Source: Candidatus Omnitrophota bacterium (GTDB lineage Bacteria; Omnitrophota; Gorgyraeia; Gorgyraeales; Gorgyraeaceae). From it: DNA of 34,581 nucleotides. Below the pieces are notes generated by a model, which was not told the origin of the DNA, did no database searches, and saw only the letters and a program-made list of their open reading frames with translations. The DNA lies in contig JAHIYJ010000024.1 of assembly GCA_018814825.1 (NCBI GenBank), positions 1-34,581 on the forward strand, in the 5' to 3' direction. Below are positions 1,293 to 25,151 of this stretch, one piece after another (position 1 is the stretch's first letter; each line of letters starts with the position of its first letter). The translations under genes and the position numbers were made by a program.

Positions 1293-1337
1293 GCTTAACT
1301 TGACGATTCTTACATTGTAAGTTTTGTCAAGTTAAGC
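1293..1337. repeat. REP-like palindrome, copy A (3' end of RAYT gene)
   Basis: The core palindrome at 1295-1335 has arms TTAACTTGAC and GTCAAGTTAA, extended here to 12 bp by GC on both sides. The centre contains a second palindrome, CTTACATTGTAAG. The two are separated by GATT on the left and TTTT on the right, giving a long hairpin with a small internal loop. The last eight codons and the stop codon of the RAYT gene are read from this copy. Four more copies occur at 2242, 2348, 14266 and 24017, all in the same orientation. Confidence 0.9.
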
Positions 1338-2221
1338 GTGTTATAAATAGCTGTTTTGCTTATTCTGAATCTATCTGCGATCTGCGGTATACTATAGCCC
1401 ATATTCATCAATCTTCTTATTAATAATCTTCGGATTTCCAGCTCTCTGGATCCTCTGAGCCGGCCTTTATTCTTTAATGCCTGGATCTGGTGCTCGAAAG
1501 ATTGACATTCCGACAGGCTTCCATTCGGAAGGACTAGCCCTTCAATGTCATTCAAGGCTTTATTAAAGGCCTTGACAATCTCTTCCGTCGCCTTTGGCTG
1601 TTTCATGGTGTCTGGTAATTTTTCTTTCCTCATGCCTTCCAATAACTGCCTGTAAGATACGCGTGCCTTTTGCGTGTCAAGATTTAACAAATCAAGCACA
1701 CTTGTGTAATCCACAAAACTAGCAATATTTGTATCTCTTGAGAATAAATTACAGGAGGACCATCTGTAACCCGCAGGATCTTCCACTATACCTGCCTTCA
1801 CAGGATTGAGATGTATATATAAAGAGGCGCTCAAGAGATAGCTATCATCCAAACACAATGCGGATCTAAAGGAACCGCTAAAGACATGGCCTTTCCTGTT
1901 ATATTTTGAATTAAAATAAAAGGCATATCTTTTAAATAGGCATTCCATGATCTCTGAAAGATTGGCTCCTCCCATCTCAATTAAAAGATGAAGGTGGTTT
2001 AACATTAAAGCAAAGCTCAATACTCCAAATTTAAAACTTTTTGATACCTCCTTTATTAAATACAACATATGCAGATAATCCACTTCTTCCAGAAACAAAG
2101 ACTCAAATCCAGTAGCATGCTGCGTAATATGCAGAATTGCCCCTTCAAACGCGATTTTGTTTCTAGCCCTGAAGTAACGTTTCAGCCTCCCTTCGTCTAT
2201 CAAATTCATCACATCCCCCAT
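1310..2221 (-). CDS. RAYT: REP-associated tyrosine transposase (Y1 HUH superfamily)
   Basis: The protein has 303 residues. The N-terminal Y1_Tnp domain shows the HUH metal-binding pair in MLNHLHLLIEM (H76, H78) and the likely nucleophile Y135 in YIHLNPVKAG, the position of the catalytic tyrosine in IS200/RAYT enzymes. Between them is the family stretch RKGHVFSGSFRS. The C-terminal region (about 255-300) holds a helix-turn-helix: RRLLIRRLMNMGYSIPQIA followed by DRFRISKTAIYNTL. Start: ATG at 2219-2221 with a strong GGGAGGG site 4 nt upstream. Enzymes of this class nick and join single-stranded hairpin repeats and are thought to disperse REP elements. Fittingly, copies of one palindrome flank the gene on both sides (1293-1337, 2241-2283), and the reading frame ends inside the downstream copy with residues LNLTKLTM. 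It looks intact. Confidence 0.88.
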   Translation of the reverse strand: MGDVMNLIDEGRLKRYFRARNKIAFEGAILHITQHATGFESLFLEEVDYLHMLYLIKEVSKSFKFGVLSFALMLNHLHLLIEMGGANLSEIMECLFKRYAFYFNSKYNRKGHVFSGSFRSALCLDDSYLLSASLYIHLNPVKAGIVEDPAGYRWSSCNLFSRDTNIASFVDYTSVLDLLNLDTQKARVSYRQLLEGMRKEKLPDTMKQPKATEEIVKAFNKALNDIEGLVLPNGSLSECQSFEHQIQALKNKGRLRGSRELEIRRLLIRRLMNMGYSIPQIADRFRISKTAIYNTLNLTKLTM

Positions 2222-2240
2222 TTTACCCTCCCTTCTCTTT

Positions 2241-2283
2241 TTTAACTTGACGATTCTTACATTGTAAGTTTTGTCAAGTTAAG
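2241..2283. repeat. REP-like palindrome, copy B (upstream of RAYT gene)
   Basis: The core at 2242-2282 is identical to copy A over the whole 41 bp. It ends about 20 bp before the RAYT start codon, leaving only the ribosome-binding site between. With copy A it brackets the transposase gene in direct orientation, about 0.95 kb apart. Confidence 0.9.
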
Positions 2284-2336
2284 GTGGTTTATATATAGTA
2301 GACACGGCTACATCCTGTTTTCTTTCAAAAATTTTT

Positions 2337-2393
2337 AAAAAAATAGCTTAACTTGACGCTTCTTACATTGTAAGTTTTGTCAAGTTAAGCTAT
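2337..2393 (-). terminator. Intrinsic terminator of hom-thrC built from REP copy C
   Basis: On the transcribed (minus) strand the 15-bp stem of copy C is followed directly by seven T residues (A-run at 2337-2343 on the plus strand). A long stem, an immediate U-tract and a position just after the last gene of the unit are the features of a Rho-independent terminator. The other four copies of the repeat lack a T-run in this position. Confidence 0.7.
2343..2393. repeat. REP-like palindrome, copy C (downstream of thrC)
   Basis: The core at 2348-2388 differs from copies A and B by one base (GCTT instead of GATT left of the inner palindrome). Its perfect arms are longer, 15 bp, because ATAGC on the left pairs with GCTAT on the right. 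It lies 33 bp after the thrC stop codon. Confidence 0.9.
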
Positions 2394-2426: not shown

Positions 2427-3482
2427 TTAGAGAGAGATTTCTTTCAGGATTGAGTCTAGGGTTGCTGGGACTACTTTGGGTTCTTTTATGGTTTTTATGG
2501 CGCGGTCTGGATCTTTTAGGCCGTGGCCTGTAAGGATACAGACTATTCTGGGGGATTTTACTTTTTTGAAATAGCCGGCTTTGTGGAGTTTTAATATGCC
2601 AGCTACTGACACGGCAGAGGCAGGTTCGACAAATACGCCTTCTTTGTCCGCTAGAATTTTATATGCTTCAAGGATTTCCTGGTCAGTTACCATGTCTATA
2701 AGGCCTCCTGATTCATCCCTGGCGGATTCCGCCTGTTTCCAGCTAGCCGGGTTTCCTATGCGAATGGCAGTGGCTATGGTCTCTGGTTCCTGGACTGGTT
2801 TTCCTCTTACAATAGGGGCAGCTCCTTCTGCCTGGAATCCCAGCATCTTAGGAAGGCTTTTTATTATACCTTTTTCTTTGTATTCTTTGTAGCCTTTCCA
2901 GTAGGCAGTAATATTGCCGGCGTTCCCGACAGGTATGGCGTGAAAGTCAGGGGCCTTGCCGTCAAGCTGGTCACAGATCTCAAACGCTCCTGTCTTCTGG
3001 CCTTCTATCCTGTAGGGATTTATTGAATTTACAAGCTGTATCGGGTATTTAGCGGTGATTTCTTTTACAAGGTTAAGTGCCTCGTCAAAATTACCATCCA
3101 CTGCTATGACCTGTGCGCCGTGAATAAGCGCCTGGGCAAGTTTACCAAGTGCAATGGCGCCTTTTGGAACCAGGACCACGCACTTCATCCTGGCCCTTGC
3201 AGAATATGCAGCTGCAGAGGCAGAGGTATTTCCGGTAGAGGCGCAGATAACAGCGTTTTTCTTTTCCTCCAAGGCCTTTGAGACAGCAAGGGTCATGCCT
3301 CTATCCTTAAAAGACCCGGTGGGATTAAGCCCTTCGTATTTTAAATAGACCTCTACCTTCAATAACTCTGACAGAAAACAGGAGTAAATAAGCGGGGTAT
3401 TGCCCTCGTTAAGAGTGATTACAGGAGTCTTGTCAGTTACCGGGAGGAATTTCCTGTATTTATCTATGAGGCCTTTCCACAT
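2427..3482 (-). CDS. thrC: Threonine synthase
   Basis: The enzyme (351 residues, usual length for the short bacterial form) converts O-phosphohomoserine to threonine with pyridoxal phosphate in the cytoplasm. The PLP lysine is K59 in [12 protein letters not shown]. The substrate and cofactor loops are [18 protein letters not shown] and the glycine-rich [15 protein letters not shown]. The C-terminal PLP-binding stretch is [11 protein letters not shown]. The start is the ATG at 3480-3482 with GGAAAG upstream. It follows hom by 4 nt, so the two are surely co-transcribed. No homoserine kinase (thrB) is in the unit, so the phosphorylated substrate must come from a gene elsewhere. Transcription appears to end at the terminator formed by repeat copy C. 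Confidence 0.95.
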
Positions 3483-5205: not shown

Positions 5206-5283
5206 TGGTCGGGGCGACTGGATTCGAACCAGCGGCCCCCTGAACCCCATTCAGGTGCGCTAAACCAACTGCGCCACGCCCCG
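5206..5283 (-). tRNA. tRNA-Pro (anticodon GGG), CCA encoded
   Basis: On the minus strand the acceptor arms CGGGGCG (5277-5283) and CGCCCCG (5210-5216) pair fully. The D arm is GCGCAGTTGGTTTAGCGC and the anticodon stem CCTGA/TCAGG encloses the loop ATGGGGT, so the anticodon is GGG (5246-5248), reading proline codons CCC and CCU. The T arm is GCTGG-TTCGAAT-CCAGT with one G-T pair. Discriminator A is followed by an encoded CCA (5206-5208). The 5' end overlaps by three bases the terminal inverted repeat of the 96-bp tandem units. Confidence 0.95.
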
Positions 5284-5585: not shown

Positions 5586-5855
5586 TCACGCCCCCTTATT
5601 CCAAGCTTCCAAATAATACCTAAGTCTATCTCTTAAATATTTCTTGCCTCTGCCAGTCTTTAACTGCTTCTCTCTCGCTACGGCATCCTTTTTCGACAAA
5701 CACCCTTCAATGTAAACTAATCCAAACGGTATCCTAGGCCTCGTTGAAGGTTCATCTCCATTATTATGCTCCTTCACACGTCGCTCTAGATCATCCGTAA
5801 ATCCGGTATAAAACTTCCTATCTTTCAAGCTCTGTAACACATATACATAATACAT
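5586..5855 (-). CDS. GIY-YIG nuclease domain protein (YhbQ/UPF0213-like)
   Basis: The 89-residue protein is a single GIY-YIG domain. MYYVYVLQSLKDRKFYTGFT carries the Tyr-Val-Tyr strand and the YTG half of the motif. ERRVKEHNNG holds the catalytic arginine, followed by FGLVYIEGC and AVAREKQLKTGRGKKYL. GIY-YIG domains cut DNA; stand-alone forms of this size are widespread and mostly uncharacterised. The ATG at 5853-5855 has no clear ribosome site and lies only some 8 nt after the expected transcription start of a good promoter, so the mRNA may be nearly leaderless. The stop codon abuts the tandem inverted-repeat units, which suggests, without proving it, a link between nuclease and repeat. Confidence 0.85.
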   Translation of the reverse strand: MYYVYVLQSLKDRKFYTGFTDDLERRVKEHNNGDEPSTRPRIPFGLVYIEGCLSKKDAVAREKQLKTGRGKKYLRDRLRYYLEAWNKGA

Positions 5856-13372: not shown

Positions 13373-14233
13373 TCACTCTTTTATATATTTGCCTATTATT
13401 ATATCCAGGTTTTTCTTTGTCTTGGCCGGTATAAGTTTTTTGTCAGTTATAATAGCGTATTTGAGGGCCTCTTTGCAAGCGCATTCTTTCTTATCGCCTG
13501 CCAGGGCAGGGACTATCTTTTTTATCAGTCTCTTGGCGGCCTCTACATTTTTATTTAGATTTTCTATAACCATGTCGATTGTCACCATTTCATCGTGCCA
13601 GCAGTCATAGTCAGTTATAAAAGCGACTGTCGCGAAACACATCTCCGCTTCCCTGGCAAGCCTGGCCTCAGGCATATTGGTCATGCCTATTATATCCATG
13701 CCCCAGGCCTTGTGAAGGAGCGATTCGGCTCTGGTTGAAAACGCCGGACCTTCCATATTAAGGTATGTGCCTTTATCGTGCACGGTAAGGCCTAACTCCC
13801 TGCCAGCTTTCAAGACAGTCTTTCTTGTTTCAGGGCACACAGGATCCGCGAAACTTATGTGCGCCACAATGCCTTCGCCAAAAAAAGTCGTCTTCCGTGC
13901 CTGATTAGTCTTATCCACAAACTGGTCCGGGAGCATTATATCAAGGGGCTTTAACTCTTTTTTAAAACTACCCACGGCTGACATCGATACTATTTTCTCG
14001 ACACCCAGCTTCTTCATGCCGTAAATATTAGCCTTGTAGTTAAGTTCCGTGGGCAATATCCTGTGGCCCCTGCCGTGCCTCGGTAAAAACACAACCTCTA
14101 CCCCCTCAAGCCTGCCAGTAACATAACTATCAGAAGGATCGCCGAAGGGAGTGTCTACTTTGATTTCCTTCGCATCCTTTAATCCATCAATCTGATACAA
14201 CCCGCTGCCGCCTATTATACCTATCTTAGCCAT
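13373..14233 (-). CDS. mtnP: S-methyl-5'-thioadenosine phosphorylase
   Basis: It phosphorolyses methylthioadenosine, the by-product of polyamine synthesis, to adenine and methylthioribose-1-phosphate (286 residues, typical). Motifs in order: [13 protein letters not shown] (phosphate loop), [36 protein letters not shown] (nucleoside site), [20 protein letters not shown] and ITDYDCWH. The aspartates of DYDCW favour the 6-aminopurine (adenosine-type) enzyme over inosine/guanosine phosphorylases. The ATG at 14231-14233 has AAGGGGG about 7 nt upstream. It follows proC with repeat copy D in between, and its stop overlaps or abuts the ileS start, so it belongs to the same transcript. Substrate choice within the family is fairly, not fully, sure. 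Confidence 0.88.
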
Positions 14234-14264: not shown

Positions 14265-14307
14265 CTTAACTTGACGATTCTTACATTGTAAGTTTCGTCA
14301 AGTTAAG
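14265..14307. repeat. REP-like palindrome, copy D (proC-mtnP junction)
   Basis: The core is 14266-14306 with arms TTAACTTGAC/GTCAAGTTAA. It differs from copy A by one base: TTTC instead of TTTT right of the inner palindrome. That change adds a G-C pair and lengthens the stem. The stop codon of proC (14303-14305 on the plus strand) lies in the right arm. No T-run follows on the transcribed strand, so it should not terminate strongly. Confidence 0.9.
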
Positions 14308-15070
14308 TTAATAAGGAACGGGATTTGTCGCGGGCTGCCTTTACAGCTTGTTCTATTATATAGCCTAACTTTTTCTTTTTAAATACATTAAGCGCCGCTT
14401 CGGTAGTGCCGCCTTTCGAGGCTACCTTTTTCGCGAAATCCCGCATTGATACATTCGATGTCCTGGCTGATTCCGCCGCCCCTGTAAAAGTGGCCATGGC
14501 CAGCTTCCTGGCAAGCCCTTTTTTCAGGCCCGCTTTTATGCCCGCTCTTTCCAAGAGGTCCGTAAATAAAAAATAATACGCCGGGCCACTGCCGCTCACG
14601 GCGGTAACAGCGTCCATAAGGGTCTCCCTCACTTCGACCACTTCGCCTAATTTTGAAAAAACTCCCCGAGCCGTTACAATATCCTGTTTCCGGGCAAACC
14701 TGCCTGTCGTAACAGCGGAAATACCCCTGCCTACCAGCGCGGGCATGTTCGGCATCACCCTTATCACCCTGACTTTGCCAAGGGCTTTTTCTATAAAGAC
14801 GGACTTGACGCCTGCCGCGATGGAAATAACAAGTTTAGCGGATATATGAGGTTTAATTTCTTTTAAAACAGCCGCTATATCCTGGGGCTTGACCGCCAGG
14901 ATGACCACTTTAGAGCGTTTTACCAGGTCGATATTGTCCCTGGCCGGAGTAACTCCGATCTTTTTCGCAGCGTTCAGTTTTGACCTGACCGCGTCACTCA
15001 TCATCACTTTCTTGCCCATCCCGGAAGCTATGGCCTTTCCCATATTACCCGCGCCTATTATACCTATCAT
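14303..15070 (-). CDS. proC: Pyrroline-5-carboxylate reductase
   Basis: It performs the last step of proline synthesis, NADPH-dependent reduction of pyrroline-5-carboxylate (255 residues, slightly short but normal). The start ATG at 15068-15070 has GAGGTGG 3-4 nt upstream and yields MIGIIGAGNMGKAIASGM, the Rossmann loop. An upstream TTG (15091) would overlap ftsA and is not needed. Further motifs: VILAVKPQDI, ISIAAGV, VRVMPNMPALVG and the family signature VTAVSGSGPAYYFLFTDLL. The C-terminus ends SRSLLT with a stop codon provided by repeat copy D. It occupies the place directly after ftsA where ftsZ usually stands. Confidence 0.95.
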   Translation of the reverse strand: MIGIIGAGNMGKAIASGMGKKVMMSDAVRSKLNAAKKIGVTPARDNIDLVKRSKVVILAVKPQDIAAVLKEIKPHISAKLVISIAAGVKSVFIEKALGKVRVIRVMPNMPALVGRGISAVTTGRFARKQDIVTARGVFSKLGEVVEVRETLMDAVTAVSGSGPAYYFLFTDLLERAGIKAGLKKGLARKLAMATFTGAAESARTSNVSMRDFAKKVASKGGTTEAALNVFKKKKLGYIIEQAVKAARDKSRSLLT

Positions 15071-15087
15071 AATCCACCTCTTTTTAT

Positions 15088-16458
15088 TCAAAAGTACTCG
15101 GAAAATATCGACTGGATCCTTGACAATACCCTTCCGGCGAAGCTATTTACATTAAATATATTCCCGCATTTCTTTTCGCCTGCCTTGCAGACCCCGTATC
15201 TCATCAGGCCCAGCGCGCCGGCGAATCTCACGTCGTGAAAATCCCTGGAATCCCTGATTCTTCCCATGTCAACCGGTACCTCGAATATCTCCTCGACCGC
15301 CTCCACAAAACCATCCATCCTTGATACCCCTCCCACCACGTAAATACGCGGCAGTTTCTTTTTTTGTTTCAGGAACGGTTCTATTTTTTTATAGACCTCC
15401 TTCATTATCTCCTCGACTTTCGGGAAGAGCATGTTGTATATTTCCTGCCTTGAGACCGCGACTGCCCTATCGGAATTCGCGGATGAAAAGACCCCGGCAC
15501 CTGATGTTTCAGAATCTACCCAGTTTCCCCCCGATCTCTTATGATCAGACTGAGCATCTTCGCGGCCGGGGCCCCTTTCATCCTTTGACGACGGTATAAC
15601 TATCCGGGAGTCGTCAAATAATTCCCTGTTGTCTTTAGAGACTATACCGTATTTTATCCTGAGTTCTTCCGCCTCGCTAAACATGATCCTTAATTTATCC
15701 TGCAGCGCCTGTGTCAAATCGTCGCTGCCAAAAGGAAAATAGAAGCAATCTTTTAACATTTCCTCCATGAACAGCGCCGCCTCTATAAGGTCTTTGCCCA
15801 CATCTATGAGTATCGCTCCCTCCTCAAGTTCCTGGCGGTCAAATACTGCCAGGGCAGTCCCTACGCCTGAAGCTATAATATCCTCGACTTCGTAGCCGGC
15901 AAGGTTAATCGCCTTTGTGAGGTTCTGCAGGATACTGACCAGTGACGTGACAATATTCAAATCCACGTCGAGTTTTGAGCCGAAAAGCCCCAACGGGTCG
16001 TTTATTTCTATTTTGTCATCAATATAAAATTTCTCAGGTATCAAATGCACGACTTCCCTGTCGAGGGACATGGCGATAAGCTTTGCCGATTCCACGCACC
16101 TCTTGATATCCTGTTCCGTGATCTCGCTGGGCCTGTCAGATATATGGACAGACCCACGGCTTTTAAAATTCTTTATATGGGCCCCGGCTATATTGGTTAT
16201 AACCTTGCGGACTTTACAGTGAGCCGCGGCCTCCGCTTTGGATATCGTCTCTTCTATCGCGTCCGAGAGAAGACTGAGGTTTGAGACAACTCCCTTTGAG
16301 AATCCTCTTGTCGGGGATTCAACAAAACCCAATATCTCACTCTGTGAGTTCAGAGGCGTTTCTTTTTTAGACTTTGACGGGGCTCCGGAGGCGTGGCCTA
16401 CCAAAGCCCTTATCTCAGACGCCCCTATATCAAGCCCGCAAATTATATCAGCGCGCAT
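15088..16458 (-). CDS. ftsA: Cell division protein FtsA
   Basis: This actin-like ATPase tethers FtsZ filaments to the membrane and helps recruit the divisome. It has 456 residues, about 35-40 more than usual. Phosphate-1 loop: CGLDIGASEIRALVG. Phosphate-2 region: AILIDVGKDLIEAALF. Adenosine motif: IYVVGGVSRMDGFVEAV. The C-terminus GRVLSRIQSIFSEYF is the amphipathic membrane-targeting helix. The 1C domain is present (residues about 85-165). The extra length lies around residues 292-326, a hydrophilic Gly/Ser/Asp-rich stretch encoded by DNA bounded by inverted repeats. The ATG at 16456-16458 has AGGGG about 5 nt upstream. It follows ftsQ by 7 nt; downstream is proC, not ftsZ. Confidence 0.93.
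   Translation of the reverse strand: MRADIICGLDIGASEIRALVGHASGAPSKSKKETPLNSQSEILGFVESPTRGFSKGVVSNLSLLSDAIEETISKAEAAAHCKVRKVITNIAGAHIKNFKSRGSVHISDRPSEITEQDIKRCVESAKLIAMSLDREVVHLIPEKFYIDDKIEINDPLGLFGSKLDVDLNIVTSLVSILQNLTKAINLAGYEVEDIIASGVGTALAVFDRQELEEGAILIDVGKDLIEAALFMEEMLKDCFYFPFGSDDLTQALQDKLRIMFSEAEELRIKYGIVSKDNRELFDDSRIVIPSSKDERGPGREDAQSDHKRSGGNWVDSETSGAGVFSSANSDRAVAVSRQEIYNMLFPKVEEIMKEVYKKIEPFLKQKKKLPRIYVVGGVSRMDGFVEAVEEIFEVPVDMGRIRDSRDFHDVRFAGALGLMRYGVCKAGEKKCGNIFNVNSFAGRVLSRIQSIFSEYF
15481..15583. repeat. Inverted-repeat-bounded insertion inside ftsA
   Basis: GGATGAAA (15481-15488) pairs with TTTCATCC (15576-15583). After a small internal loop, CCCCGGC (15492-15498) pairs with GCCGGGG (15565-15571). 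The 103-bp segment encodes the low-complexity, hydrophilic extra region of FtsA between the conserved IVIPSSK and the SRQEIYNMLFPKVEEIM helix. The ends and the in-frame length suggest an inserted palindromic element; chance pairing cannot be excluded. Confidence 0.45.
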
Positions 16459-21660: not shown

Positions 21661-22755
21661 CTATTTTTCCGCTATGTTCAGCAAAAGCGCTACCCCTATC
21701 ATGTTTAATATAAGGGCTGTGCCGCCATAGCTTATAAAAGGCAGCGGCAGGCCTTTTGTGGGTATAGCGCCTGTTGAAACAGCTATATTAACGAACGCCT
21801 TCAGCCCGATGCTCACTATAATGCCCAAAGCCAGAAATTTTCCAAACAGGTCCCTGGCCTTTATTGAAATCTTTATACCCAGCCATATAAGGATAACGAA
21901 TAAAACCACTATACTGAGAGTCCCTATAAGCCCTGTTTCTTCCCCTATTATGGAAAATATAAAATCCGTATGCGCCTGAGGCAGATAAAAAAGCTTTTGC
22001 CTGGAAGCGCCAAGACCTAACCCTAAAATACCTCCTGAGCCAAGCGCCAGAAAAGACTGGATTATCTGGAAACCCGCCCCCTGCGTATCACTCCACGGGT
22101 CCAGATAACCTACTATACGCCTGAGCCTATAAGGGACCCTGACTATCAAAAAATAAAAAGCCGGGACTGAAATCACTATAAAAGGTATTAGATACGCTAT
22201 GTTCGCACCCGCCGCAAATAGCATGATAATCGAGACGCTTAAGAGCGTAGCCGCGCTGCCAAGGTCAGGCTGGGCCAGGATCAATAAAACCACCGTGCCC
22301 GCCGCAAATAGCGGAGGCATAAAACCATAAAAAAAATTCCTGATATACCCCTGTTTTTTCTCAAGCGCGCCAGCCAGATATATGATCAAAAAAAGCCCCG
22401 CGAACTCTGACGGCTGAAACCCGAAACCGCCAATCTTGACCCATCTCTTCGCCCCTCCCGCCTCATGTCCTATGCCTGGCACAAATGAAAACAAGAGTCC
22501 CAATATAGCCAAGAGGAGCAACGGCTTAGTATAGCCCTTCAGTTTTCTGTAATCCAGCCTTATCGTAGCTATTGCCAGAAAAAGCCCTATTATAAAATGA
22601 ATCAAATGTCTTTTTAGATAATACGCGCTGTCATAAAACTTTTCATACGCGTAACAGCTGGAAGAAGAATAGACCATGATAATCCCTATAGAGGCAAGCG
22701 CCGTCGTGACAATCATGAGCCAGTGAGATTCTTTTTTCATCTCAATTTTAGACAT
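21661..22755 (-). CDS. ftsW: Peptidoglycan polymerase FtsW (SEDS family)
   Basis: This polytopic SEDS protein (364 residues) polymerises lipid II at the septum together with FtsI. Ten hydrophobic segments are visible. Motifs: GIGHEAGGAKRWVKI, FQPSEFAGLFLIIYLA, LAQPDLGSAATLLSV (catalytic aspartate region), IIGEETGLIGTL and GAIPTKGLPLPFISYGGTAL. The start is either ATG 22753-22755 or the ATG at 22738-22740, which forms a classic ATGA overlap with the murD stop; neither has a strong ribosome site. It could also be called RodA by sequence alone, but the position between murD and murG supports FtsW. Confidence 0.93.
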   Translation of the reverse strand: MSKIEMKKESHWLMIVTTALASIGIIMVYSSSSCYAYEKFYDSAYYLKRHLIHFIIGLFLAIATIRLDYRKLKGYTKPLLLLAILGLLFSFVPGIGHEAGGAKRWVKIGGFGFQPSEFAGLFLIIYLAGALEKKQGYIRNFFYGFMPPLFAAGTVVLLILAQPDLGSAATLLSVSIIMLFAAGANIAYLIPFIVISVPAFYFLIVRVPYRLRRIVGYLDPWSDTQGAGFQIIQSFLALGSGGILGLGLGASRQKLFYLPQAHTDFIFSIIGEETGLIGTLSIVVLFVILIWLGIKISIKARDLFGKFLALGIIVSIGLKAFVNIAVSTGAIPTKGLPLPFISYGGTALILNMIGVALLLNIAEK

Positions 22756-24002
22756 AATTCTTTAAAAATCCTGCCGCGATCTTCGTAATTCTTAAACATA
22801 TCAAAACTAGAGCAACCCGGCGACAACAATATCTTCTCGCCTTCTCTGGCGTTACTAAAGGCGCTTTTCACCGCGGATTCCAGGTTTTCTTCCTCGAATA
22901 CATTTTTAAGGCGCCTTAAATCCTTTTTAATCCTTGGTCTTGCCTCGCCTATGGCGATAACACGGCTGACCTTCTCGTTTATGGCTTTCTCGAGTATCGA
23001 GAAATCCCCGCCTTTGTATTTCCCACCCATGATAAGGATTATGCGGCCATCAAGGGATTTTAAGGCCCACTCAACGCTTGAGACAGTTGTGGCCTTTGAG
23101 TCGTTTATAAAGTCTATCCCCTTGACATTCGCCACATGCTCCAGCCTGTGCTCTATGCCTTTAAAACCGGCTATTGCCTCAAGTATCTTTCCCTCTTCCA
23201 CTCCTGCCAGGGACGCCACTGACATAGCAGCCAGAAAATTTTCATTGCGTATATCGCATTTTACACGAAGATTTTTATATTCATCGAAAAACTCGACTCT
23301 GGACTTGACGCACGGAGCCAGTGACCTGAGCGTCAGGTCTTTCCCATTCAGAAAAACCGTGTCACCCGCGCCCTGATTGACGAATATCCTGGACTTCAGC
23401 GATATATATTCTTCCATGTCTCTGTGTCTATCCAGATGATTCGCTGAAATATTCAATATCACGCTGATCCACGGTTTAAACGTCTCTATGCCCTCGAGCT
23501 GAAAAGAGCTTACCTCAAGGACAACTATAGAGTCTTTCCTTATCCTGCCTATCTCGCCGGAAAAAGGGTTACCTATATTCCCACATACTACCGCATCAAG
23601 TCCCTGTTTTTTAAGCATCTGGCCTATCAGAGTGGTGACAGTAGTCTTGCCGCTAGTACCGGTCACCGCTATAACAGGAACCGGGCACACCGAATACGCC
23701 AGTTCTAATTCGCTTATTACCGGTATATTATTATCGCGGGCTAACTTAACGGGCAAAGAATCCATCGTCACTCCGGGGCTGATCACCATGATGTCCGAAC
23801 ACTCAATAAGCCTCTGACTGTGAGAACCTAATTCAACATTATCCTTCATGACCACGTTCTCTTTAATCAGTGAATCCCGAACGGCCCGCGTCGCGCTGTC
23901 GTCTTTTATCTCGGTAATAAAAACAGTATCCCCGCGCCCTGCCGCCAATCTGGCCGCGGCAATCCCGCTCTTAGCCAAACCAACAACTACTACCTTTTTC
24001 AT
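22737..24002 (-). CDS. murD: UDP-N-acetylmuramoylalanine--D-glutamate ligase
   Basis: It adds D-Glu to UDP-MurNAc-L-Ala (421 residues). Motifs: VVVGLAKSGIAAARLA, MVISPGVTMDS, the P-loop AVTGTSGKTTVTTLIG, VLEVSSFQLEGI, LNISANHLDRH and FINDSKATTVSSVEWAL, then ILLSPGCSSFDMFKNYEDRG at the C-terminus. The ATG at 24000-24002 has a good GGAAGGGG site that sits right beside repeat copy E. The repeat hairpin therefore lies immediately 5' of the murD ribosome site and could affect its use. Confidence 0.96.
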   Translation of the reverse strand: MKKVVVVGLAKSGIAAARLAAGRGDTVFITEIKDDSATRAVRDSLIKENVVMKDNVELGSHSQRLIECSDIMVISPGVTMDSLPVKLARDNNIPVISELELAYSVCPVPVIAVTGTSGKTTVTTLIGQMLKKQGLDAVVCGNIGNPFSGEIGRIRKDSIVVLEVSSFQLEGIETFKPWISVILNISANHLDRHRDMEEYISLKSRIFVNQGAGDTVFLNGKDLTLRSLAPCVKSRVEFFDEYKNLRVKCDIRNENFLAAMSVASLAGVEEGKILEAIAGFKGIEHRLEHVANVKGIDFINDSKATTVSSVEWALKSLDGRIILIMGGKYKGGDFSILEKAINEKVSRVIAIGEARPRIKKDLRRLKNVFEEENLESAVKSAFSNAREGEKILLSPGCSSFDMFKNYEDRGRIFKELCLKLR

Positions 24003-24016
24003 CTACGCCCCTTCCC

Positions 24017-24057
24017 TTAACTTGACGATTCTTACAATGTAAGTTTTGTCAAGTTAA
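24017..24057. repeat. REP-like palindrome, copy E (mraY-murD junction)
   Basis: The 41-bp core has arms TTAACTTGAC/GTCAAGTTAA and differs from copy A only in the central base (CTTACAATGTAAG). The mraY stop codon (24054-24056 on the plus strand) lies inside the right arm. No T-run follows on the transcribed strand; the murD ribosome site does. Confidence 0.9.
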
Positions 24058-25151
24058 CGAAGCTTTAGGGAAGCGAAACTCAGGAGCATCAATATTATCG
24101 CTATGATCCAGAACCTCACCGTAACCTTTGGCTCTTTCCAGCCGCACATCTCAAAATGATGATGGAGCGGCGCTATCTTGAATATCCTCTTACCTGTGAG
24201 CCTGAAAGAGACTATCTGCATCAAGACCGAAACAGACTCTATCACGAATATCCCGCCTACCAGCAGCAATATTATCTCTTTTTTTATGAAAACCGCGACC
24301 GTGCCTATCGCGCCTCCGAGGGCCAGGGCGCCTGTATCACCCATAAATATTGAAGCCGGGAATGAATTGTACCATAAAAATCCCAGCCCAGCTCCGGCCA
24401 TCGCGGCGCAAAAAACACTGAGCTCCGCAGCCTCGGGAAGGTAATATATGCCAAGATAATGGGCAAACTGACTATGCCCCGCCACATAACTCAGACCAGC
24501 ATACGTCATGGCGGTCAATGTAATGCAGCCTATGGCGAGGCCGTCCAGCCCGTCAGTGAGATTTACTGCGTTTGAGGAGGCTGTTATCACAAGCATGACA
24601 AACAATATATAAAAAATACCCAGGTCAATGGCCAGCTCTTTTAAAAAAGGCATTTCCAGCATGGTAGTCGTTTTAGGGTTAGTGTAAAGAAAGGCCCCTA
24701 TGATCAAGCTCACGAATATCTGGGCGAAGAGCTTCGTCCTTTTATTCAGCCCCCTTTTGCCTTTTCCGGGCTTGGATGTAAGTTTTTTATAATCGTCAAG
24801 AAAACCTACGCCTCCGAGCCAGCCGGTGACCATAAGAGCAAGTAATACAAAATTATTTTTTATATCAGCCCATAATAGAGTCGAGGCGAAAATACCGAGC
24901 AAAATCAATATGCCACCCATTGTAGGCGTGCCCTGCTTTTCCTTGTGCAGGTCATAAAGGCCCGGGCATTCCTTCTGTCGTATGGTCTCTCCTATTTTCA
25001 GGGCCTTTAATTTTTTTATTATAGGGGGGCTGAAAATTACTGTTATTAGAAACGCCGTGACGCTGGCAAGGGCCGCCCTGAACGTTATATATTTAAAGAC
25101 ATTAAAAACAAACAGGTATTCTCTTAAAGGGTATAATAAGTGATACAACAT
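24054..25151 (-). CDS. mraY: Phospho-N-acetylmuramoyl-pentapeptide transferase
   Basis: This polytopic membrane enzyme (365 residues) moves phospho-MurNAc-pentapeptide onto undecaprenyl phosphate, giving lipid I. Motifs: KEKQGTPTMGGIL, the DD of FLDDYKKLTSKPGKG, NAVNLTDGLDGLAIG, SFPASIFMGDTGALALGG and the histidine stretch APLHHHFEMCGWKEPKVTVR. The protein ends ASLKLR, close to the usual C-terminus, and the next codon, TAA, comes from repeat copy E. The ATG at 25149-25151 is 2 nt after the murF stop. Confidence 0.97.
   Translation of the reverse strand: MLYHLLYPLREYLFVFNVFKYITFRAALASVTAFLITVIFSPPIIKKLKALKIGETIRQKECPGLYDLHKEKQGTPTMGGILILLGIFASTLLWADIKNNFVLLALMVTGWLGGVGFLDDYKKLTSKPGKGKRGLNKRTKLFAQIFVSLIIGAFLYTNPKTTTMLEMPFLKELAIDLGIFYILFVMLVITASSNAVNLTDGLDGLAIGCITLTAMTYAGLSYVAGHSQFAHYLGIYYLPEAAELSVFCAAMAGAGLGFLWYNSFPASIFMGDTGALALGGAIGTVAVFIKKEIILLLVGGIFVIESVSVLMQIVSFRLTGKRIFKIAPLHHHFEMCGWKEPKVTVRFWIIAIILMLLSFASLKLR

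Follow-up and report, generated by a model that had tools for sequence, protein, structure and literature searches.

The locus and its palindromes

The stretch of Omnitrophota DNA analysed here (34,581 nucleotides, hereafter the window) carries a RAYT transposase gene lying among near-identical palindromes, which raises the question whether the enzyme and the palindromes form a REP system of their own, distinct from the classical enterobacterial one with its GTAG foot. The features that bear on this question are the following, with strands given relative to the window.

847-1203, minus: XRE-type helix-turn-helix regulator (HTH_3, 62.9 bits), downstream neighbour of the RAYT gene by synteny
1295-1335, plus: palindrome copy A, overlapping the 3' end of the RAYT gene and supplying its stop codon (1310-1312, inside the palindrome)
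1310-2221, minus: RAYT, a TnpA-REP-like Y1 transposase of 303 aa with a Y1_Tnp Pfam match and a C-terminal helix-turn-helix (HTH)
2242-2282, plus: palindrome copy B, upstream of RAYT at a distance of 20 bp from its start codon
2348-2388, plus: palindrome copy C, in the gap between RAYT and thrC, its dyad reaching 2343-2393
2427-3482, minus: ORF that we take to be thrC (threonine synthase), constant upstream neighbour of RAYT across the family by synteny in loci L043-L050 and in the thrC loci of RAYT-less relatives
14266-14306, plus: palindrome copy D, over the stop codon of ORF 14303-15091 (minus), in the gap before ORF 13373-14233 (minus)
24017-24057, plus: palindrome copy E, over the stop codon of ORF 24054-25151 (minus, presumably mraY-like), in the gap before ORF 22737-24002 (minus, presumably murD-like)

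The original prediction had named five palindromes, and all five were found, at 1295, 2242, 2348, 14266 and 24017. They are 41 bp long with perfect 10-bp arms and lie in one orientation; A and B are identical and C, D and E each differ from them by one base, in agreement with the claimed maximum of one difference from copy A. The palindrome pattern had no match in 100 dinucleotide shuffles of the window (0 expected). The RAYT gene, said to lie between two palindromes, is indeed bracketed, but the palindrome at its 3' side overlaps the gene and holds its stop codon.

Within 238-1203, the XRE gene and a small lipoprotein-like ORF (SPDE-KIAFSAITP) remain next to thrC in some relatives that have lost the RAYT gene. 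As the XRE gene is retained there, the regulator is probably not part of the RAYT/repeat system. The window also holds a tRNA gene (5209-5283, minus) and, nearby, a small GIY-YIG nuclease ORF (5586-5855).

The RAYT protein

The protein matched Pfam Y1_Tnp with 34.8 bits (cut-off 23), and its C-terminal helix-turn-helix matched HTH_23 (E 3.6e-5). The catalytic residues named beforehand, H76 and H78 (H76-L-H78) and Y135, are invariant, together with N139 and P140, in an alignment of 16 sequences from Omnitrophota and Desulfobacterota. The tyrosine motif, Y135-I-H-L-N139-P140, is of the Y---NP type. A structure model built from the 16 aligned sequences (mean pLDDT 78.9, with a weak linker at about residues 200-240) had as its nearest PDB fold 4er8, the E. 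coli TnpA-REP with a REP hairpin (E 4e-6, TMt 0.75, rmsd 2.2 Å).

In E. coli TnpA-REP, the GTAG is contacted by W94, Q95, E100, H101 and R104 (PMC6006769). These align to F114, S115, S120, A121 and L124 of the window RAYT, all five being replaced; with an overall identity of just 18% between the two proteins, single aligned positions are provisional. F114, however, does not vary among the 16 aligned sequences. The system thus appears to depart from the textbook REP on both sides, in a repeat without GTAG and in a matching loss of the putative GTAG-contact residues.

The match to NCBIfam REP_Tyr_transpos (52.9 bits, cut-off 80) marks the protein as a relative outside the curated equivalog, whose cut-off does not define the wider class. 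The protein has the traits of subclass 2.1, namely NH-u-H, F for W, YIHLNP, SS after the tyrosine (YRWSS) and the C-terminal HTH. By these features, compared with Table 1 of PMC6006769, it fits TnpA-REP subclass 2.1, the equivalent of RAYT group 1 and of most TIRYTs. For this subclass, REP-like sequences are given as 'no' (Quentin et al. 2018, PMC6006769). The source genome has one RAYT of this type, at a thrC locus that is constant among the relatives examined; the gene is single-copy and vertically inherited. Its matches to PADLOC defence models were negligible.

The repeat family in the source genome

Copies were counted by pattern searches in the source genome (1.30 Mb in 103 contigs, 92% complete). 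With up to three arm mismatches, 33 palindromes were found on 23 contigs, whereas the reversed control pattern gave none; one more sequence, at C84:5447, matches the core motif and brings the number to 34. The repeat is therefore not confined to the five sites of the window. Both orientations occur genome-wide, and the common orientation claimed earlier holds for the window copies only. In full, the repeat measures about 43 bp (C-N41-G); the sequence beyond it is unique, except that a few copies adjoin other repeats; in two of the genome's copies (L036 and L037) the right flank is one common second repeat (GCAGCATCCCTCGACTGCGCTCGGGA).

In the 31 copies that were oriented, only the outermost base of the arms varies; the remaining variation falls at positions 11-15 and 18-31, chiefly at the central base and position 31. 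T13 and T14 are kept in 28 of the 31, so that a TT/TT internal mismatch recurs in the hairpin. Folded computationally as single-stranded DNA, the repeat reached -11.3 kcal/mol (z -6.5), the predicted hairpin having a base of 10-11 bp, a 3-nt loop and, in most copies, the short TT/TT mismatch.

By simple ORF calling, no copy lies within an ORF. Thirty-one were placed between two ORFs, 26 of them between ORFs in the same direction, 3 between convergent and 2 between divergent ones, and 22 of the 26 same-direction copies start at most 10 bp from the upstream stop codon or overlap it. About half of the genome copies carry the stop codon of the adjacent ORF, and the palindrome has stop codons at positions 2-4, 7-9 and 24-26, one in every frame. 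GTAG REPs likewise lie near gene 3' ends and lend stop codons (PMC3733652). No common GTAG or CGTC tag flanks the source-genome copies, which bears out the absence of a GTAG foot. Neither was a T-run found consistently after these copies, nor a terminator predicted at the three copies near RAYT; no Rfam family covers the repeats, and nothing was found for reading them as promoters. With REPs, which are palindromes of 20-40 bp, they share their short length, their dispersal, their extragenic position and the flanking of their own RAYT gene.

Linkage of gene and repeat in the order and phylum

Of the 19 genomes of the order, 9 have a full-length RAYT orthologue. The motif TTGAC-N5-9-ACAWTGT-N5-9-GTCAA is present in all nine (3-100 copies each) and in one of the ten without an orthologue, with no match to control patterns (one-sided p 1e-4 for the exact motif, uncorrected for kinship). 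The sole exception, G007, has 19 motif copies, and its thrC contig stops just past a palindrome, at the expected RAYT position; given this contig end and an assembly that is 79% complete, the gene may merely be missing from the assembly. Among 384 genomes of the phylum, the multi-copy motif is confined to this family, and two isolated matches outside it appear to be due to chance. The contrast also holds within genera: G091 has 13 copies against 0 in the RAYT-less G071 and G148, and G381 has at least 18 strand matches to a structure-sequence (covariance) model against 0 in the RAYT-less G194.

In every orthologue locus read (L043-L050), the RAYT gene comes after thrC. In RAYT-less relatives, RAYT fragments occupy the same thrC-side site in G003 and G005, and a single palindrome does so in G015, which indicates that the gene was lost there rather than originally absent.

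The wider subfamily was collected by searching genome contigs with an alignment query, a single-sequence RAYT query having given no match. In the phylum, its members (E < 1e-65, mostly full-length) stood apart from generic RAYTs (E > 1e-42). Strong palindromes flank 20 of 46 5' sides and 22 of 48 3' sides (42 of 94, a count that includes some duplicates, as a few loci were entered under two names), compared with 12 of 522 control windows from the same loci, and weaker palindrome pairs are visible at most of the remaining flanks. The RAYT-flanking palindromes, 33-45 bp long, have a common length and layout and a lineage-specific sequence in Omnitrophota and some Desulfobacterota, with a nearly constant ACA...TGT step. 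In an alignment of 20 of them, 97% of the cells are paired, and both sides changed in 16 of 20 pairs; these statistics are inflated by the selection of the sequences as palindromes, and the alignment only shows turnover of sequence with the hairpin kept. Similarity between proteins correlates with similarity between palindromes (Mantel r 0.52, 0 of 5000 permutations, uncorrected for phylogeny like the other comparisons between genomes), as expected from joint descent. Since the hairpins of relatives match their genes but are differently spelled, RAYT and repeat evolve together.

Copies away from the RAYT gene were confirmed in G381, G091 (13) and G181 (28). The covariance model counts both strands, with a ceiling on the matches per genome, so that copies amount to about half of the strand matches and are lower bounds; at least three strand matches were obtained in 21 of 38 subfamily-bearing genomes against 8 of 40 without the subfamily (p 0.001, uncorrected for kinship). 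The expectation that this RAYT possesses its own family of palindromes, different from the GTAG REPs, is thus supported, both the presence and the sequence of the palindromes following the gene across genomes.

Genomes in which the pairing is broken

The strongest departure is G002 (97% complete). It has no subfamily RAYT and yet at least about 27 palindromes with this layout (CTAAAGTAGACAAAACAG...), several of them inside larger repeats; gene loss after spread, or use of the palindromes by another RAYT, would explain this. Fewer related palindromes, and no intact subfamily RAYT, were found in G001, G003, G005 and G015, of which G003 and G005 retain remnants of a RAYT. The original prediction had hung on the repeat not being equally common where the gene is lacking. 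Overall it is not, but these five genomes have related palindromes although they lack an intact gene of the subfamily, and in some genomes the repeats persist after RAYT loss. Conversely, the covariance model gave no matches in several RAYT-bearing genomes, whose repeats are then either limited to the flanks of the gene or too divergent for the model.

At five G002 loci (L289, L290, L293, L294 and L295) larger paralogous repeats carry the palindrome at their tip, in the order GGGCACGGTGC-palindrome-GCGAGCGAG. The same repeat context holds two unrelated palindromes, as if the tip were exchangeable.

Mobility and turnover of the copies

The near-identity of the window copies had been attributed to recent or continuing dispersal, which is unproven, nearly all sites compared being common to the nearest testable relatives. 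Between G009 and G013 (about 85% DNA identity), all sites for which both flanks were found are common. Most of the sites compared in G011 and G014 are common as well, and a few are vacant or occupied by another palindrome (L212 and L224 in G011; L222 and L227 in G014). A search for empty counterparts of 17 G009 sites in three relatives yielded no clean pair of empty and filled sites, the junctions being too diverged for the target to be read. As most sites are common to relatives, near-identity in the window is by itself no proof of recent dispersal.

In G014, the orthologous palindrome at two sites carries arms of the G014 type on either side, a pattern that hints at replacement in place. Concerted evolution gave no clear signal in G009 and G013, where orthologous copies are 0.895 identical and random pairs 0.861; among G009, G013, G011 and G014 it is a suggestion only, wholesale replacement being seen at only the two G014 sites. 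At one site orthologous between G009 and G013 (L231 2107-2135, compared with L239), AGTTGAC/GTCAACT is changed to AGGTTAC/GTAACCT, a symmetric change of both arms suggesting hairpin-templated correction or replacement of the copy. A strict rule of direct orientation for the flanking pair, as for the ends of IS608, was rejected, direct comparison being better in more than half of the members and inverted comparison in the others.

Proposed mechanism and alternatives

We consider it likely (probability about 0.8) that the locus is a REPtron-like unit, in which a single-copy, HTH-bearing HuH/Y1 transposase of subclass 2.1 is paired with a cognate palindrome of about 43 nt. On the model of E. coli TnpA-REP and IS608, whose catalysis underlies this scheme (PMC8266576), the hairpin would form on single-stranded DNA at the replication fork and RAYT would bind it by contacting the hairpin base and the ACA/TGT step, which is nearly universal. 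Tyr135 would then nick at the hairpin foot, and strand transfer would spread or replace copies. With both the GTAG foot and its contact residues missing, recognition and target choice would have to follow another rule, perhaps aided by the HTH domain. Copies would survive in intergenic positions, and an insertion at the end of a gene would be tolerated, since the repeat provides a stop codon in all three frames.

A bolder version, which we hold only tentatively and regard as rather doubtful, is that HTH-bearing RAYTs make up a separate REP system without a guide tetranucleotide, the hairpin being read by its base and the fixed ACA/TGT, and that existing sites are mainly rewritten in place instead of new ones being seeded. 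Such rewriting would let the repeats of each genome drift together.

The palindromes might instead be the terminal inverted repeats of a small insertion sequence, the 33 copies being MITEs or solo ends. The bracketing of the gene, about 20 bp upstream and over the stop codon, agrees with this, as do the TIR-flanked TIRYT genes of subclass 2.1, some of whose TIRs are self-complementary (PMC3733652). A jumping insertion sequence would not, however, be expected as the only such RAYT of the source genome, at a thrC locus fixed in the relatives examined, and the window pair matches better in direct than in inverted orientation (42 vs 21), other members being mixed; we therefore think this explanation unlikely. 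A main role as RNA hairpins (terminators or mRNA stabilisers), kept by selection and tied to RAYT by history, would account for the position directly 3' of stop codons in tandem operons, for sites long conserved among relatives and for repeats that outlast the loss of RAYT. Yet the lack of a consistent T-run, of a terminator call at the three RAYT-near copies and of an Rfam family, the mixed orientation relative to the gene and the absence of the repeats from most RAYT-less genomes make it improbable.

The palindromes could also be operators for a DNA-binding regulator, for instance the XRE protein encoded next to RAYT, the latter being incidental. Perfect dyads with conserved arms would suit that role, and the XRE gene is adjacent in most of the family. 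But the copies are found within operons at the 3' ends of genes and not at promoters; G004 has 35 copies although its RAYT is followed by pgk and not by XRE; G015 keeps XRE, has lost RAYT and has few repeats left; and similar palindromes flank RAYTs at unrelated loci in another phylum. This possibility is accordingly very remote.

The pairing of transposase and hairpin proposed above matters beyond this locus, as RAYT group 1 (subclass 2.1) is among the largest branches of REP transposases and has been reported without a REP-like partner. The many natural variants within the group would offer ready cognate and non-cognate pairs for the study of GTAG-free recognition, and the pairing is relevant to the puzzle of why domesticated transposases present in single copy are maintained jointly with their repeats.

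Comparison with known systems and other Y1 genes

The protein resembles E. coli TnpA-REP (rayT, b0228; RAYT group 2, subclass 2.2) in its HuH/Y1 core, its Y---NP motif and its nearest fold, 4er8. As in E. coli, a single-copy gene is flanked by its own repeats, whose copies lie near gene 3' ends, and the hairpin is imperfect with a recurring mismatch, like that of GTAG REPs. It differs from the E. coli system in the absent GTAG foot, the five replaced GTAG-contact positions and the extra C-terminal HTH, and the repeats are mostly lone copies and not REPIN/BIME pairs, their number of about 33 being below the typical one.

With the TIRYT/TIRtron group (Di Nocera 2013, PMC3733652; Quentin 2018, PMC6006769) the system has in common the protein subclass, judged by features, and flanking repeats without GTAG, some published TIRs being self-complementary and repeated. 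Here, however, the repeats are full hairpins with TTGAC/ACA motifs: the window RAYT is flanked by TTAACTTGAC palindromes, and the GGGGWSAS TIRs of most published TIRYTs are absent. Unlike what is reported for subclass 2.1, said to be without REP-like sequences, the repeats are also dispersed, one relative having as many as 100 copies. Genes for subclass 2.6 and class 3 TnpA-Y1 proteins are likewise known to be flanked by atypical secondary structures that lack GTAG and have copies elsewhere in the genome, but subclass 2.6 (mainly Bacteroidetes) is a different protein subclass with a different repeat, and class 3 (Y----Q; Planctomycetes, Acidobacteria, Proteobacteria) a different protein class with a different repeat (PMC6006769). 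IS200/IS605 elements (IS608, ISDra2) share the HuH/Y1 chemistry, the hairpin ends and a related fold and differ in having Y---Q where this protein has Y---NP, and in lacking its single gene copy at a fixed locus; in contrast to these elements, no tnpB was seen beside RAYT and no short guide tetranucleotide was found.

A second Y1 transposase gene, of 235 aa, occurs in the source genome (in the region L040 1341-2831, C64:11505-12995) and is bracketed by inverted repeats (AATAGGGGACAGCGACCTATT; GGGGACAG and AGGGGACAG), which fit the published TIRYT consensus GGGGWSAS, so that two Y1 systems with different repeats are present in one genome. In G009, the flanks of L219 and L221, with matches in G013, G011 and G014, contain dispersed palindromes with GTAG feet (GTAGGG...CCCTAC types), which are apparently ordinary GTAG REPs beside the new family.
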